From contig NZ_AQXR01000009.1 in NCBI RefSeq assembly GCF_000376885.1, positions 1-64,000 of the forward strand: a stretch of DNA of 64,000 bases, read 5' to 3'. Both the position numbers and the translations under genes were made by a program. The stretch is from Alloscardovia criceti DSM 17774. Lineage in GTDB: Bacteria > Actinomycetota > Actinomycetes > Actinomycetales > Bifidobacteriaceae. Shown one piece after another: positions 29,503 to 37,219 of the stretch; position 1 is the stretch's first letter; each line of letters begins with the position of its first letter. Under the pieces are notes generated by a model, which did no database searches, was not told where the DNA came from, and saw only the letters and a list, made by a program, of their open reading frames with translations.

Positions 29503-29841
29503 CTAGTGGCAAGTGCCATCAATATCGCATGCACCTGAAGACTCGACCTTAATTGCATTGTCCGTGCGCGCATTCACGCTTGCTAAAGTCTCATTACGAT
29601 GGACATTGAATTCTTTCGCAAGGAAATCGATGATATCCAGGGATTCATACAGTGGCTTGCCATCGATGAAAAGGCATGGCACCTGAGGCTTCCCGCCAAC
29701 GCTGATAAGCCTTTCGCGTGCGTGAGGATTGGCAATCACATCGTTCATTTCTATGCGGATACCATTTTCCTCCATAAAATCCATCACCTTATGGCAGTAT
29801 GGGCAATCTTCCTTATAAAAAAGTTCTAAACTGTGTGCCAT
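29503..29841 (-). CDS. glutaredoxin-like protein
   Basis: A 112-residue thioredoxin-fold redox protein. The active site CPYC lies at 13-16 after LELFYKED, the cis-proline is in QVPCLFIDG, and the late motif ESLDIIDFL matches the GxD/E region of glutaredoxins. A C-terminal extension of about 30 residues ends in CDIDGTCH, giving two more cysteines spaced by five. It could reduce disulfides with a low-molecular-weight thiol or a thioredoxin-type reductase; the physiological donor is unknown. AAGGA precedes the ATG. Transcription is separate from its neighbours. Confidence 0.87.
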   Translation of the reverse strand: MAHSLELFYKEDCPYCHKVMDFMEENGIRIEMNDVIANPHARERLISVGGKPQVPCLFIDGKPLYESLDIIDFLAKEFNVHRNETLASVNARTDNAIKVESSGACDIDGTCH

Positions 29842-32489: not shown

Positions 32490-35400
32490 CTATGAGCGAG
32501 CCTGATCTGCGCGACGACGCTTGATTGCGATGACGCTGGACAAACCAGCAATGAGAGTCATGAGCGCAACTGCAGCGATTGTGGCCACGTCAGAACCGGT
32601 CGATGCCAATGCATGAGGCTTGGTGGTAGACACTGTGGTGTTTGGTCCAGTGATCTTTACTGAGAACTGGTCGATAACGTTGCCATCCTTGTCCTTGACG
32701 GTTACCGTAATGGTGTCGCCAGGCTTAGCATCATCATTTGGAGTTACAGTAATCGAACCATCTGGATTCAGCTCAGCTGTACCAGGACCATCCACAACTA
32801 CGGTGGTGCCATCTGGTACCTTACCGCCGTTGTTTGGTACGGTTACTGGCTCGCCAGGCTTGGTGGTGCCATCGTTCCAGTCAGGCTTCTCCCCCGGATT
32901 TCCTGGAGTCTTAGGCTCCGTAATTGTAACGACAACCTGGTCGATGTCATTGCCATATGGATCCTTTACCGTAACGGTAATGGTGTCACCAGGCTTTGCA
33001 TCATCGTTAGGAGTGACTGTAATCGAACCATCTGGGTTCAATTCAGCAGTACCAGGACCGTCGACTACAACGGTTGAGCCATCAGGAACGGTGGTTCCAT
33101 CGTTTGCATTTGGAACGTTCACTGGAGTCTTTGGCTCCGTGGTGGTGTCATTCCATGCAGGCAAGCACGCTGCGTTAGCCATGGACTTGAAGGTCCATGT
33201 CACCGTCTGCTCACCAGAGAACTGGTAACCATCCGCAGGTACAGCCGTGACCGTAACGGTTTCGCCGTATGCATAGGTGTAATGACCATCAGCGTCTGCT
33301 GTGAGTACATTGCCCTTCGAATCCTTTACGGTGTATACCACGCCCTCATCCTGTGGAAGCACTACGTATGGAGCAATGCTGCACTGGGATGGATCGTCCG
33401 CAGATGGGTTGATTACGAATGGGTTGCCATTGTCGTCCGTGCCATTTGGATCAAATGTAGGAGTGGTATCTGCCTTACCGATAGTGCTCTTACCTGTCTG
33501 AGGGTCGGTAGTCTTTGCAGACTTGTCACCATCAGGCTCGTTGTAGTTGATAACTACGGTGTAAGGCTTGTCGGTGACAGCCTCTGTAGGCGTACCGGAG
33601 ATGACGCACTTGCCATCCTTGTACGTAGCAGTCAAGCCAGCTGGCAAACCGGTAACGGTGCAACCCGTGATATCAGCCTTGCCTGGGTTCTTTACTTCAA
33701 TTTCCACTGGAGTAATTGGCTTGTTTACAGTACCGGTTACATCTGGCAAGGTGGTGTCAACGCTTGGCGCAACGGCGCAACCGTTCTCATCTACCAGAGC
33801 GCCTGCTGGCGTGTTTGCGCACTTATCAGAATCATCAGGTACGCCGTCGCCATCGCCATCCTTGGAATCGGCAGGATTGATGGTGTAGCTACCCTGAGCT
33901 GGGTCTGTAGTACCTGCAGTTGCAGAATCTGCTGGCTTGTAAGAAACGGTAACAGTGTAGTTTCCTGTGCCCTCTTCCGTTGGGGTACCGGAAATGGTGC
34001 ACTTGCCGTCTGCAAACGTAGCGGTCAAACCAGCTGGCAAACCGGTAATGGTGCAGCCAGTGATTTCTGCCTTTCCAGGGTTGTCAATGGTGACTTCCAC
34101 AGGAGTAATTGCGGTGCCTACCTTACCGGAAATGGCAGGAGCGCCATTGTCTGGAATTGTAGGAGCAACGGAGCAACCGTTTTCATCTACCTTCGCACCT
34201 TCTGGCGTAGCTGGGCACTTATCGTCCTTGTCTGGGACGCCGTCACCATCGCCATCCGTGTTGGTCTTTTCCGTCACCTTTACTGGTACGGAAACCGTGT
34301 CGGTAGAACCATCAGCATAGGTTACCTTTACAGGAATGCTGTAGTCACCTACGGTTGCATCATCGTTTGCAACCACGGTGATAGAACCATCTGCATTCAC
34401 AGTTACAGTTCCTGGGAAAGCACCCTTCGTACCATCTGGCAGAGTAATATCGCCATCCTGCTCATAGGACTTTACCTCTGGGTTTGAAGCCTCGCCCGTT
34501 GCAGAGTTCTTGAACGTAGGAGCTGGAACGGTAGCATTGCCGCCCTGAGCAACGGTGGTATCGGTTGCATACACAGGTTCATTGTCATCGGCAAGGGTAG
34601 GCTCAGCCTTCTTTTCTGTCACAGTAACTGGCACAGAAACAGTATCCGTAGAATCATCGCCATAGGTTACCTTTACAGGCACACTGTACTTTCCTACGGT
34701 TGCGTCATCGTTAGCAACAACAGTGATAGACCCATCTGCATTCACGGTTACAGTTCCAGGGAAAGCACCCTTAGTACCATCTGGCAGAGTGATATCACCA
34801 TCCTGCTCGTAGGACTTTACTTCAGGAGTTGTCGCCTCGCCGGTTTCCGTATCCTTGAAGGTAGGTGCTGGAACGGTAATCGTGCCGCCCTGCTCAACTG
34901 TGTTGTTATCTTGGTACACAGGCTCATTGTCATCAGCAAGAGTGTCCTCTAACTTAAGGAAATCAATGAACAGATTTGCCGTATTACCATCAATGGCGAT
35001 CGTCTCACCATCCTTGAGCTGGCTATCGTCAGCGATGGAATAGCCTGGGGTGCTACCCGAGATAGAAACGGTGTAATCACCCTTAGGGAAGTCTGCAAGA
35101 CCGAAGTTGTGTACAACTGGGTAACCGTCAGCACCACGCCATGTAGAAGCATCACCTGCGGTGAACACGGTACCAGCTGGTACGGTGACGGACTCGCCCG
35201 CTGCATTGGTGTAGGTCATCTCAGACTTTGCAGTCAAGGTCACCACGATATTGCGCAAAGCTGCTGGGAGCTCTGCACCGTTATCCGAGTTGTCGCCGTT
35301 GGAGTTCACGACCACTCCATCAATCTTCACACCCTGGGTGACGTGCTGGAAGTCCGCAGTCTTGGTGGTATCGTCTGGCGTGCCGTCGTTGTTGTTGTCT

Positions 35401-37121
35401 GGGTCAGTAGTGTCTGGATCACCATCGTGATCAGTGTCCTCTACAGCATCGAAGGAATCTGCATATAATGCACCATCAATTACAGAGTCATCAGACGGAT
35501 CCACAGAAAAGACCATTGCGGTGAACGTAGTACGACCATTCAGGGTATCAGGCACGGTGATTGGATCAGATGCCAATGCTCCAGTAGCATCGGATGTCTG
35601 AATATTTGGGTCGCCAACTTTCACCAAGGTACCAGTCGAATCAGTCTTGAACCATTGAATTGCATACTTAGTGTATGGCCTCAAGCCCTTAGTTTCAGTC
35701 TGAACCGTTGTACCTGGCGTTGCGAGGTTATCGTAGGAGTTGTACTCCAAGACGTCAAACAGTGGGTCAGCAATGAGGAATGCGAAGTTCTGGTCTTGAA
35801 TTGTGTAGTTATAGGCATCAATTTTGCCAAACTTAATCGCACCTCCCCACTCTTCCGCAGACTGGAACATGTTATCTTGATACATGTCCATCCAGACATC
35901 ATATCCACTATCAACCACAGGGTAAACATACATGTAATCATCGTTAATATGACGACGCTTAGCTGCGTTAATTAACCCACCAGTAAATACAGCACGATTG
36001 TTTGCAAAGTCAGTCGCAACGGTATGCCACTCATCAGCTGTCACCAAATTGTCAACCTGCGCAATTTGATTCATTCGCGTACGGCTAGCACCGTATGTCC
36101 CCTTAAATGGCAAATAGTATGAACCATCAGCTTTTACTGTTGCGACTACTGACTCTGCAATAGCCGAACCTGGAACTCCTGTTTCGGCTTCATACGCTTC
36201 TACAATTTGCTTTTGGGCGTCACGGAACTGAGAACGAGTATATCCCTTGTTCGCTGCTTTCCAGTCATCAAAGCGCTGGGCCACTTCATCGTTTACATAG
36301 GATCCTACAACTTTGACACCATTTGCAGCATGATCGCCTCTACGCGGATTCTGATGGTACACATAAGGCATACTTCCTTCCGCCTCTTGAGCCTCCCACC
36401 AAATAGAACTCTCTATGACACCTGAATCCCCTGTATTAGGGAACTGTCCATCAGAAGTGCCAGCCGTTGTCCAATCTGACTCAGGTTTTGCCAACCAACC
36501 ATCAAGATTAGGCCTCTCTTGTAAGACCATTGATTGACCAATAATTACGTTTACACCAACTGTGAAGTCCCAAGTTTCCACGGTGCGTTGTAATCGTTTG
36601 TGGAATGCTGCAGCCTTGAACGTATCACCCGTCATGGCAACAGAGTACTTAGATGGATCTGGGTTTTTTATCCACGTACGAATCTGGAAATTCGGGTCAC
36701 CAGCAAGCTTAAAGGATGGCGCACCATATTTGCTTGTAACTGAGTCTTGAACATTGAAATGATACGAACCATCTGTAGCTGTCACCGCCGAAAAGATTGG
36801 AGATACTTGTCCCTTACCGTTCATGTACTGCAAATACACCACAGCACCAGCAAGCGGCTCATCTCCTTCGTCAGTGTTCATCACAAAGATTGTGTTAGCT
36901 CTGTCAACATAAGCCGTTCCGCGGACCTGCTGAGTAGCACGATCCGCATCCTCGGAAATATTGATTGCTTTGATACCGTCAGTTGACGTAACGGACGTAT
37001 CATTTGAAGACGGTGTGGAGCTACCGCCATCAGCGGCGAACGCAAGGCTACCCACACCTCCCGTGAACAACATAGTGATTGCTGCTATACACGCAGCTAC
37101 ACTTTTCTTATTTATTTTCAA
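32490..37121 (-). CDS. large Rib/YPDG-type surface protein with LASTG anchor, probably phase variable
   Basis: 1543 residues from a TTG at 37121, chosen because GGGAAGGGG lies 5 nt upstream and the product starts with a clean signal peptide (MKINKKSVAACIAAIT...LAFAA). ATG codons at 37151 and 37139 lack good sites. Residues 30-560 are a unique region opening with a Cna-B/SdrD-like fold. Then follow a TSP3-type run DTDHDGDPDTTDPDNNNDG, two Rib-like repeats (LADDNEPVY), and two units of TSP3 (DGDGDGVPD..DKC) plus an Ig-like domain (ITGCTITGLPAGLTATF). Near the end are two nearly identical repeats (VVVDGPGTAELNPDGS), then LASTG, a hydrophobic helix and IKRRRADQ. It is cell-wall anchored. A poly-C tract lies in its promoter. 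Confidence 0.87.
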   Translation of the reverse strand: MKINKKSVAACIAAITMLFTGGVGSLAFAADGGSSTPSSNDTSVTSTDGIKAINISEDADRATQQVRGTAYVDRANTIFVMNTDEGDEPLAGAVVYLQYMNGKGQVSPIFSAVTATDGSYHFNVQDSVTSKYGAPSFKLAGDPNFQIRTWIKNPDPSKYSVAMTGDTFKAAAFHKRLQRTVETWDFTVGVNVIIGQSMVLQERPNLDGWLAKPESDWTTAGTSDGQFPNTGDSGVIESSIWWEAQEAEGSMPYVYHQNPRRGDHAANGVKVVGSYVNDEVAQRFDDWKAANKGYTRSQFRDAQKQIVEAYEAETGVPGSAIAESVVATVKADGSYYLPFKGTYGASRTRMNQIAQVDNLVTADEWHTVATDFANNRAVFTGGLINAAKRRHINDDYMYVYPVVDSGYDVWMDMYQDNMFQSAEEWGGAIKFGKIDAYNYTIQDQNFAFLIADPLFDVLEYNSYDNLATPGTTVQTETKGLRPYTKYAIQWFKTDSTGTLVKVGDPNIQTSDATGALASDPITVPDTLNGRTTFTAMVFSVDPSDDSVIDGALYADSFDAVEDTDHDGDPDTTDPDNNNDGTPDDTTKTADFQHVTQGVKIDGVVVNSNGDNSDNGAELPAALRNIVVTLTAKSEMTYTNAAGESVTVPAGTVFTAGDASTWRGADGYPVVHNFGLADFPKGDYTVSISGSTPGYSIADDSQLKDGETIAIDGNTANLFIDFLKLEDTLADDNEPVYQDNNTVEQGGTITVPAPTFKDTETGEATTPEVKSYEQDGDITLPDGTKGAFPGTVTVNADGSITVVANDDATVGKYSVPVKVTYGDDSTDTVSVPVTVTEKKAEPTLADDNEPVYATDTTVAQGGNATVPAPTFKNSATGEASNPEVKSYEQDGDITLPDGTKGAFPGTVTVNADGSITVVANDDATVGDYSIPVKVTYADGSTDTVSVPVKVTEKTNTDGDGDGVPDKDDKCPATPEGAKVDENGCSVAPTIPDNGAPAISGKVGTAITPVEVTIDNPGKAEITGCTITGLPAGLTATFADGKCTISGTPTEEGTGNYTVTVSYKPADSATAGTTDPAQGSYTINPADSKDGDGDGVPDDSDKCANTPAGALVDENGCAVAPSVDTTLPDVTGTVNKPITPVEIEVKNPGKADITGCTVTGLPAGLTATYKDGKCVISGTPTEAVTDKPYTVVINYNEPDGDKSAKTTDPQTGKSTIGKADTTPTFDPNGTDDNGNPFVINPSADDPSQCSIAPYVVLPQDEGVVYTVKDSKGNVLTADADGHYTYAYGETVTVTAVPADGYQFSGEQTVTWTFKSMANAACLPAWNDTTTEPKTPVNVPNANDGTTVPDGSTVVVDGPGTAELNPDGSITVTPNDDAKPGDTITVTVKDPYGNDIDQVVVTITEPKTPGNPGEKPDWNDGTTKPGEPVTVPNNGGKVPDGTTVVVDGPGTAELNPDGSITVTPNDDAKPGDTITVTVKDKDGNVIDQFSVKITGPNTTVSTTKPHALASTGSDVATIAAVALMTLIAGLSSVIAIKRRRADQARS
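32660..33150 (-). repeat. two near-identical wall-proximal repeats in the LASTG protein
   Basis: Two copies encoding VPDG(S/T)TVVVDGPGTAELN and NDDAKPGDTITVTVKD lie about 280 bp apart (roughly 32660-32850 and 32930-33110). Only a few codons differ, which suggests recent duplication or gene conversion. Confidence 0.7.
34260..34945 (-). repeat. two Rib-like repeats in the LASTG protein
   Basis: Two units of about 330 bp (near 34945-34610 and 34605-34265) each run from LADDNEPVY through EVKSYEQDGDITLPDGTKG to a TDTVSVPV ending. The shared core is almost identical at DNA level. Confidence 0.75.
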
Positions 37122-37187
37122 ATTTTCCCCTTCCCTCATACCACCTCGCATTTCGAAAAATGGCAGTGATATCTTTTAGGCAATAAA

Positions 37188-37219
37188 ATCCTAAACTCGA
37201 GGGGGGGGGGGGGGGCCAA
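37188..37219 (-). promoter_or_regulatory. candidate phase-variable promoter of the LASTG protein gene
   Basis: On the minus strand a weak -35 TTGGCC (37219-37214) and a -10 TAGGAT (37193-37188) are separated by 20 nt, of which 13 are part of the poly-C tract. Loss of three C residues would give the ideal 17-nt spacer. The start codon lies about 70 nt downstream. The hexamer assignment is my inference. Confidence 0.45.
37201..37215. repeat. 15-bp homopolymeric G tract
   Basis: An uninterrupted run of 15 G (C on the coding strand of the LASTG gene), 80 bp upstream of its start codon. Tracts this long mutate readily by slipped-strand mispairing. No other tract of comparable length was seen in the window. 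Confidence 0.95.

Follow-up and report, generated by a model that had tools for sequence, protein, structure and literature searches.

A poly-C tract between candidate promoter boxes of a Rib-domain surface protein gene in Alloscardovia criceti: a putative site of phase variation with a counterpart in another genus

Introduction

Homopolymers in promoters are known from Neisseria meningitidis, in which poly-G or poly-C runs lie between the -10 and -35 boxes of porA, fetA, and opc (PMC2791445). The length of the run matters for expression, with opc expressed at a low level with C11 and at a high level with C12 (PMC3447861). A related arrangement is attributed to hifA/hifB of Haemophilus influenzae in a short summary of earlier work (cited in PMC9187656), according to which changes in the length of a TA repeat between -35 and -10 switch a surface structure.

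G/C tracts have also been described in Bifidobacteriaceae. In Bifidobacterium breve UCC2003, slippage at intragenic G-tracts of bbr_0113 and bbr_1889 switches pili, and additional tracts inside promoter spacers are noted in the same study (PMC9187656). G/C tracts are abundant in Gardnerella, where about 70% of those of at least 8 nt lie within 300 bp upstream of open reading frames (ORFs); many of the tract-associated ORFs encode Rib, GA, or LPXTG proteins, and Sanger sequencing of one tract showed its length to vary between 9 and 10 (PMC11287997). Here, we analyze a 15-nt tract upstream of a large surface protein gene in A. criceti DSM 17774, within a stretch of 64,000 nucleotides (hereafter the window), and compare it with tracts in other genomes of the family.

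Results

The gene and its upstream region

The features considered in the window are as follows, all on the minus strand:

32490..37121, minus: surface protein gene, likely starting at TTG 37121; the ORF opens at ATG 37151 (1553 aa); from profile and sequence evidence
37122..37187, minus: probable leader with G-rich ribosome-binding sites GAGGTGG and GGGAAGGGG; read from the sequence
37176..37178, minus: in-frame TAA between the tract and the start codons; from the sequence
37188..37193, minus: proposed -10 box TAGGAT, 4/6, keeping TA at positions 1-2 and the final T; from the sequence, with TATAGT (5/6) as its counterpart in the G088 ortholog
37194..37213, minus: spacer in its assembled state, 20 nt (13 C plus TCGAGTT); from the sequence
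37201..37215, minus: C15 homopolymer (G15 on the plus strand), proposed slippage tract in the promoter spacer; from the sequence, and the longest G/C run in the genome
37214..37219, minus: proposed -35 box TTGGCC, 4/6, its last two C shared with the tract; from the sequence, with TTGACA (6/6) as its counterpart in the G088 ortholog

The most likely start of the surface protein gene is TTG 37121: its ribosome-binding site (GGGAAGGGG) is the best of the candidates, and the resulting protein begins with a normal signal peptide. The initial annotation had placed the tract 80 bp from the start of the protein, which is right for this codon (79 nt between them); the alternative starts ATG 37139 and ATG 37151 lie 61 and 49 nt from the tract. 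Counted from the first ATG, the 1553-aa product has a signal peptide, four long Rib/YPDG repeats, putative Ig domains, and a C-terminal wall anchor consisting of LASTG, a hydrophobic segment, and RRR. Profile scores were above the curated cut-offs (RibLong 123 bits versus 27; YPDG 114 versus 40). With its signal peptide, Rib-type repeats, and C-terminal sorting signal, the product belongs with LAXTG/LPXTG sortase-anchored Rib-domain proteins, LAXTG being the signal of class E sortases (PMC5148588). The signal peptide, Rib repeats, and LASTG anchor also predict a surface-exposed protein, as is the case for targets of the porA/opc type. The gene is one of four very large surface protein genes within 33 kb of the window (21694-54464), which encode products of 2182, 1553, 2455, and 2364 aa with Cna_B, RibLong, and Rib repeats.

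Rarity of the tract and other G/C runs in the genome

The uninterrupted G15 on the plus strand (C15 on the coding strand) reported in the initial annotation was confirmed at 37201-37215. All remaining G/C runs in the window are 6 nt or shorter, and no other run in the 1.88-Mb genome is as long. Under a first-order Markov model, runs of at least 15 are expected about 3e-5 times per 64 kb and about 9e-4 times per genome, so this repeat is far longer than chance would provide, as is typical of porA/opc-type contingency loci. Long runs are in excess more generally, with 9 runs of at least 10 in the genome (versus about 1.4 expected) and 5 of at least 11 (versus about 0.3).

Three of these five longest runs (C15, G12, and G11) lie upstream of genes for sortase-anchored proteins; the other two are a C13 before a thiamine-pyrophosphate (TPP) enzyme gene and a C11 before a periplasmic binding protein gene. 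The G12 (L074 2825-2836; G000:C10:256324-256335) is on the coding strand about 135 bp upstream of the gene for an 895-aa SpaA-domain LPLTG surface protein, and the G11 (L066 2937-2947; G000:C8:46436-46446) is on the coding strand about 490 bp upstream of the gene for a 620-aa signal-peptide protein with a LANTG anchor. Clear flanking boxes resembling -35 and -10 were found at neither of these G-type tracts. The C13 (L067 2696-2708; G000:C9:65195-65207), on the coding strand about 130 bp upstream of a gene with a metabolic rather than a surface product, had no promoter-like flanks. We also observed a G9A7 sequence (L076 3062-3070; G000:C11:48561-48569) within an ORF of 286 aa; this ORF ends some dozen codons further on while an overlapping frame continues, which could reflect a slippery site of the frameshift type or an error in sequencing.

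Candidate promoter boxes around C15

On the coding strand, the tract is embedded in the order 5'-CGCAAT-TTGG-C15-TCGAGTT-TAGGAT-3'. The coordinates of the TTGGCC and TAGGAT boxes (37219-37214 and 37193-37188) and their 20-nt spacing agree exactly with those proposed initially, as does the arithmetic by which three fewer C (C12 in place of C15) would give a 17-nt spacer. The promoter-like arrangement is real. It is less striking than had been implied: an equally good TTG/TANNNT pair around C15 arose in 2.75% of flank shuffles (P about 0.03). A generic promoter scan, with spacers limited to 16-18 nt, did not list the TTGGCC/TAGGAT pair. Because each box matches the consensus at only four of six positions and shuffles reproduce the pair at this rate, the window's own boxes, taken alone, are modest evidence for a promoter.

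An ortholog in another genus

Among 151 family genomes we found one ortholog of the surface protein gene, in another genus (G088:C18, 1392 aa). The two proteins are 68% identical across 714 aa of the C-terminal half; a longer, second alignment, which also covers the N-terminal part, gives 39%. Their upstream DNA does not align beyond the tract. Upstream of the ortholog, the sequence reads gagtTTGACA-C11-TACTCCGCTT-TATAGT, with a perfect -35 box (6/6) and a nearly perfect -10 box (5/6) situated 94 nt before the likely GTG start. Only 0.015% of flank shuffles matched this arrangement (P 1.5e-4). At the window gene a C15 tract goes with a 20-nt spacer, and in G088 a C11 tract goes with one of 21 nt.

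Both genes thus appear to carry a repeat between two boxes, as at porA/opc-type loci, with P 0.03 for the window's own boxes and 1.5e-4 for those of the ortholog. The same arrangement kept in otherwise diverged DNA is the pattern that would be expected from selection for the arrangement itself, and the best support for reading the region as a promoter is this comparison. The promoter role suggested in the initial annotation gains independent support because the ortholog has C11 between TTGACA and TATAGT in spite of non-aligning flanks, and because the same architecture precedes genes for other secreted proteins (see below); we consider it the best reading of the sequences rather than a proven one.

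Both in the window (29503-29841) and at the ortholog locus in G088 (L086 11253-11582), the surface protein gene has a glutaredoxin-like gene (112 aa, CPYC motif) downstream of it, a hint that the neighborhood is shared or was transferred together.

Searches for further homologs returned little. In four congeners, no homologs of the promoter DNA were found, and the nearest relative of the protein within the genus is a Rib protein of 1920 aa with 26% identity, in G002. A G10 on the coding strand (L088 9243-9252; G002:C15) lies 170 bp upstream of the gene for that protein, with no clear boxes. Among genome contigs of named organisms, the only matches were distant repeat matches outside the family, and viral contigs searched with the promoter sequence contained no match.

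A recurrent promoter pattern in the family

We searched 189 family genomes for the pattern TTGANA-C7-N4..14-TANNNT, using the reversed pattern and a G-for-C version as controls. The pattern occurred at nine distinct sites in eight of the genomes, compared with no site for the reversed control and one for the version with G on the coding strand, and all nine precede genes for signal-peptide proteins. One site is that of the G088 ortholog, seven belong by alignment to a single promoter family, and an eighth, in G186, resembles that family. Because these sites share ancestry, they amount to closer to two or three independent origins than to nine.

Members of the promoter family begin with TTGATA or TTGAAA, followed by C7, C8, C9, or C10, 9 nt, and TACAAT, TATAAT, TATACT, or TATGTT. 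In the main family, 9 nt invariably separate the tract from the -10 box, giving spacers of 16, 17, 18, and 19 nt. Two paralogous copies in one genome (G133) differ in tract length, with C10 and C7. The seven family sites are in genomes of 1.5-1.7 Mb, with 38-47% G+C in the stretches fetched, and have the ribosome-binding site AGAGGAGAGG, unlike that of the window gene. At the loci of this promoter family (L162, L164-L169, and L115), most downstream proteins are of one related kind (MNAKLA...SLGASSLALF). These C7-C10 promoters may be the same loci as the tracts described in Gardnerella.

Tract lengths therefore vary between species and paralogs (C15 and C11 at the orthologs, C7-C10 in the promoter family), as seen in one genome per species. 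A search of the family for TTGNNN-C9, which placed no requirement on the -10 box, gave no clear excess over its reversed control, so that only a minority of family tracts are of the -35/-10 spacer type. A pattern of the TTGGCC type had no match in the family under a gap limit that was one base too short for the window's own site.

Discussion

A model for switching by promoter spacing

Phase variation through promoter spacing, as in porA and opc, is in our view the probable explanation of C15. Slipped-strand mispairing during replication would add or remove C residues, and the changed number of C would alter the distance between -35 and -10, with consequences for RNA polymerase binding and promoter strength. 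In individual cells, expression of the surface protein would then shift between levels in a heritable and reversible manner. In this model the assembled 20-nt spacer would represent a weak or OFF state, and loss of about three C (to C12) would restore the usual 17 nt and give stronger transcription, predicted to be the strongest. We infer here that the boxes form a working promoter, that the tract varies within the strain, and in which direction length acts. The on/off switching by slipped-strand mispairing put forward in the initial annotation is thus upheld as the best interpretation of the sequence data, short of proof.

One alternative is that a promoter lying farther upstream places the tract in the mRNA leader, where its poly-C pairs with the G-rich ribosome-binding site, such that tract length tunes translation or mRNA stability. 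There is a promoter-like TGGACA-17-TATTTT at 37284-37256, and predicted folding pairs tract C residues with the GGGAAGGGG region at the window gene and with AAGGGG in the G088 ortholog. However, these folds are no better than those of shuffled sequences (z -1.35 for the window gene and -0.66 for G088), and we rejected pairing with the ribosome-binding site on this basis. In the ortholog, the tract lies between the consensus boxes and would thus precede the start of the transcript; members of the related promoter family use another ribosome-binding site; and with 15 C present, one or two more or fewer would hardly alter pairing. We consider control through the leader unlikely.

The tract could instead lie outside the core promoter and act on a regulator or upstream element, altering how it is spaced or bound, as known from nadA and sabA (PMC2791445, PMC4081817). 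Given the weakness of the window's own boxes, the true core promoter could be elsewhere, and other surface protein genes have tracts nearby that lack flanking boxes. At the ortholog and in the promoter family, however, the tract is immediately adjoined by consensus boxes, and we regard an effect on a regulator as quite unlikely.

Long G/C runs are common in the family, with at least one run of 10 or more in 142 of 151 genomes, and some stand in no clear context. The poly-C might accordingly be a neutral mutational relic that drifted to its present length without function, or an artefact of sequencing or assembly. Both seem very unlikely for a run that is the longest of its genome and sits at a surface protein gene promoter, and whose ortholog in another genus keeps both tract and position despite diverged flanks. 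The length of 15 C in the assembly may itself include an assembler or sequencer error.

Translational (frameshift) phase variation, although demonstrated experimentally in the genus Bifidobacterium for the pilus genes of B. breve (PMC9187656), is scarcely credible here and was rejected: the tract lies upstream of an in-frame stop and of the start codons, no frame crosses it into the gene because TAA 37178-37176 precedes every start codon, upstream of the first ATG the frame stays open for just 8 codons, and in the G088 ortholog, too, tract and start are separated by an own-frame stop, with a TGA placed two codons ahead of the first ATG.

Implications

If the tract does act through promoter spacing, individual cells of the same clone would not be alike with respect to a large surface protein. 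A culture would then be heterogeneous in adhesion, immune recognition, and phage sensitivity, and a given assembly would capture just one of the states. The comparison also supplies a rule for the family, in which spacer length is the C count added to a constant remainder, and it points to candidate genes in several genomes. Taking all sites together, we lean slightly toward a broader interpretation: a recurrent design, TTGAnA-poly(C)-about 9 nt-TATAAT with C on the coding strand, may place unrelated secreted and wall-anchored proteins of the family under independent transcriptional switches, as an actinobacterial counterpart of the meningococcal porA/opc promoters that was acquired or kept independently of flanking DNA.

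Comparison with known systems

The repeat of hifA/hifB is a dinucleotide repeat in divergent promoters. In this it differs from C15; as far as the summary of that system goes, the two share a repeat in the spacer of a surface-structure promoter. The B. breve pilus loci resemble our proposal in that slippage of G/C tracts controls sortase-dependent surface structures, but the switches demonstrated there are intragenic frameshifts, a mechanism excluded at the window gene by its in-frame stop. The Gardnerella tracts likewise lie upstream of surface protein genes, though they were not placed relative to -35 and -10 boxes (PMC11287997). Meningococcal porA, opc, and fetA resemble the arrangement proposed for the window locus in having a G/C homopolymer within the promoter spacer of a gene for a surface protein; they differ in encoding Gram-negative outer-membrane proteins and in having a measured relation of length to expression, which for the window locus is a prediction, and the likeness implies no claim of sequence homology. 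The principle has long been known in Neisseria and Haemophilus and was already indicated for Gardnerella and B. breve; what is new here is the comparative placement of tracts between recognizable, putative promoter boxes at both orthologous and unrelated surface protein genes.
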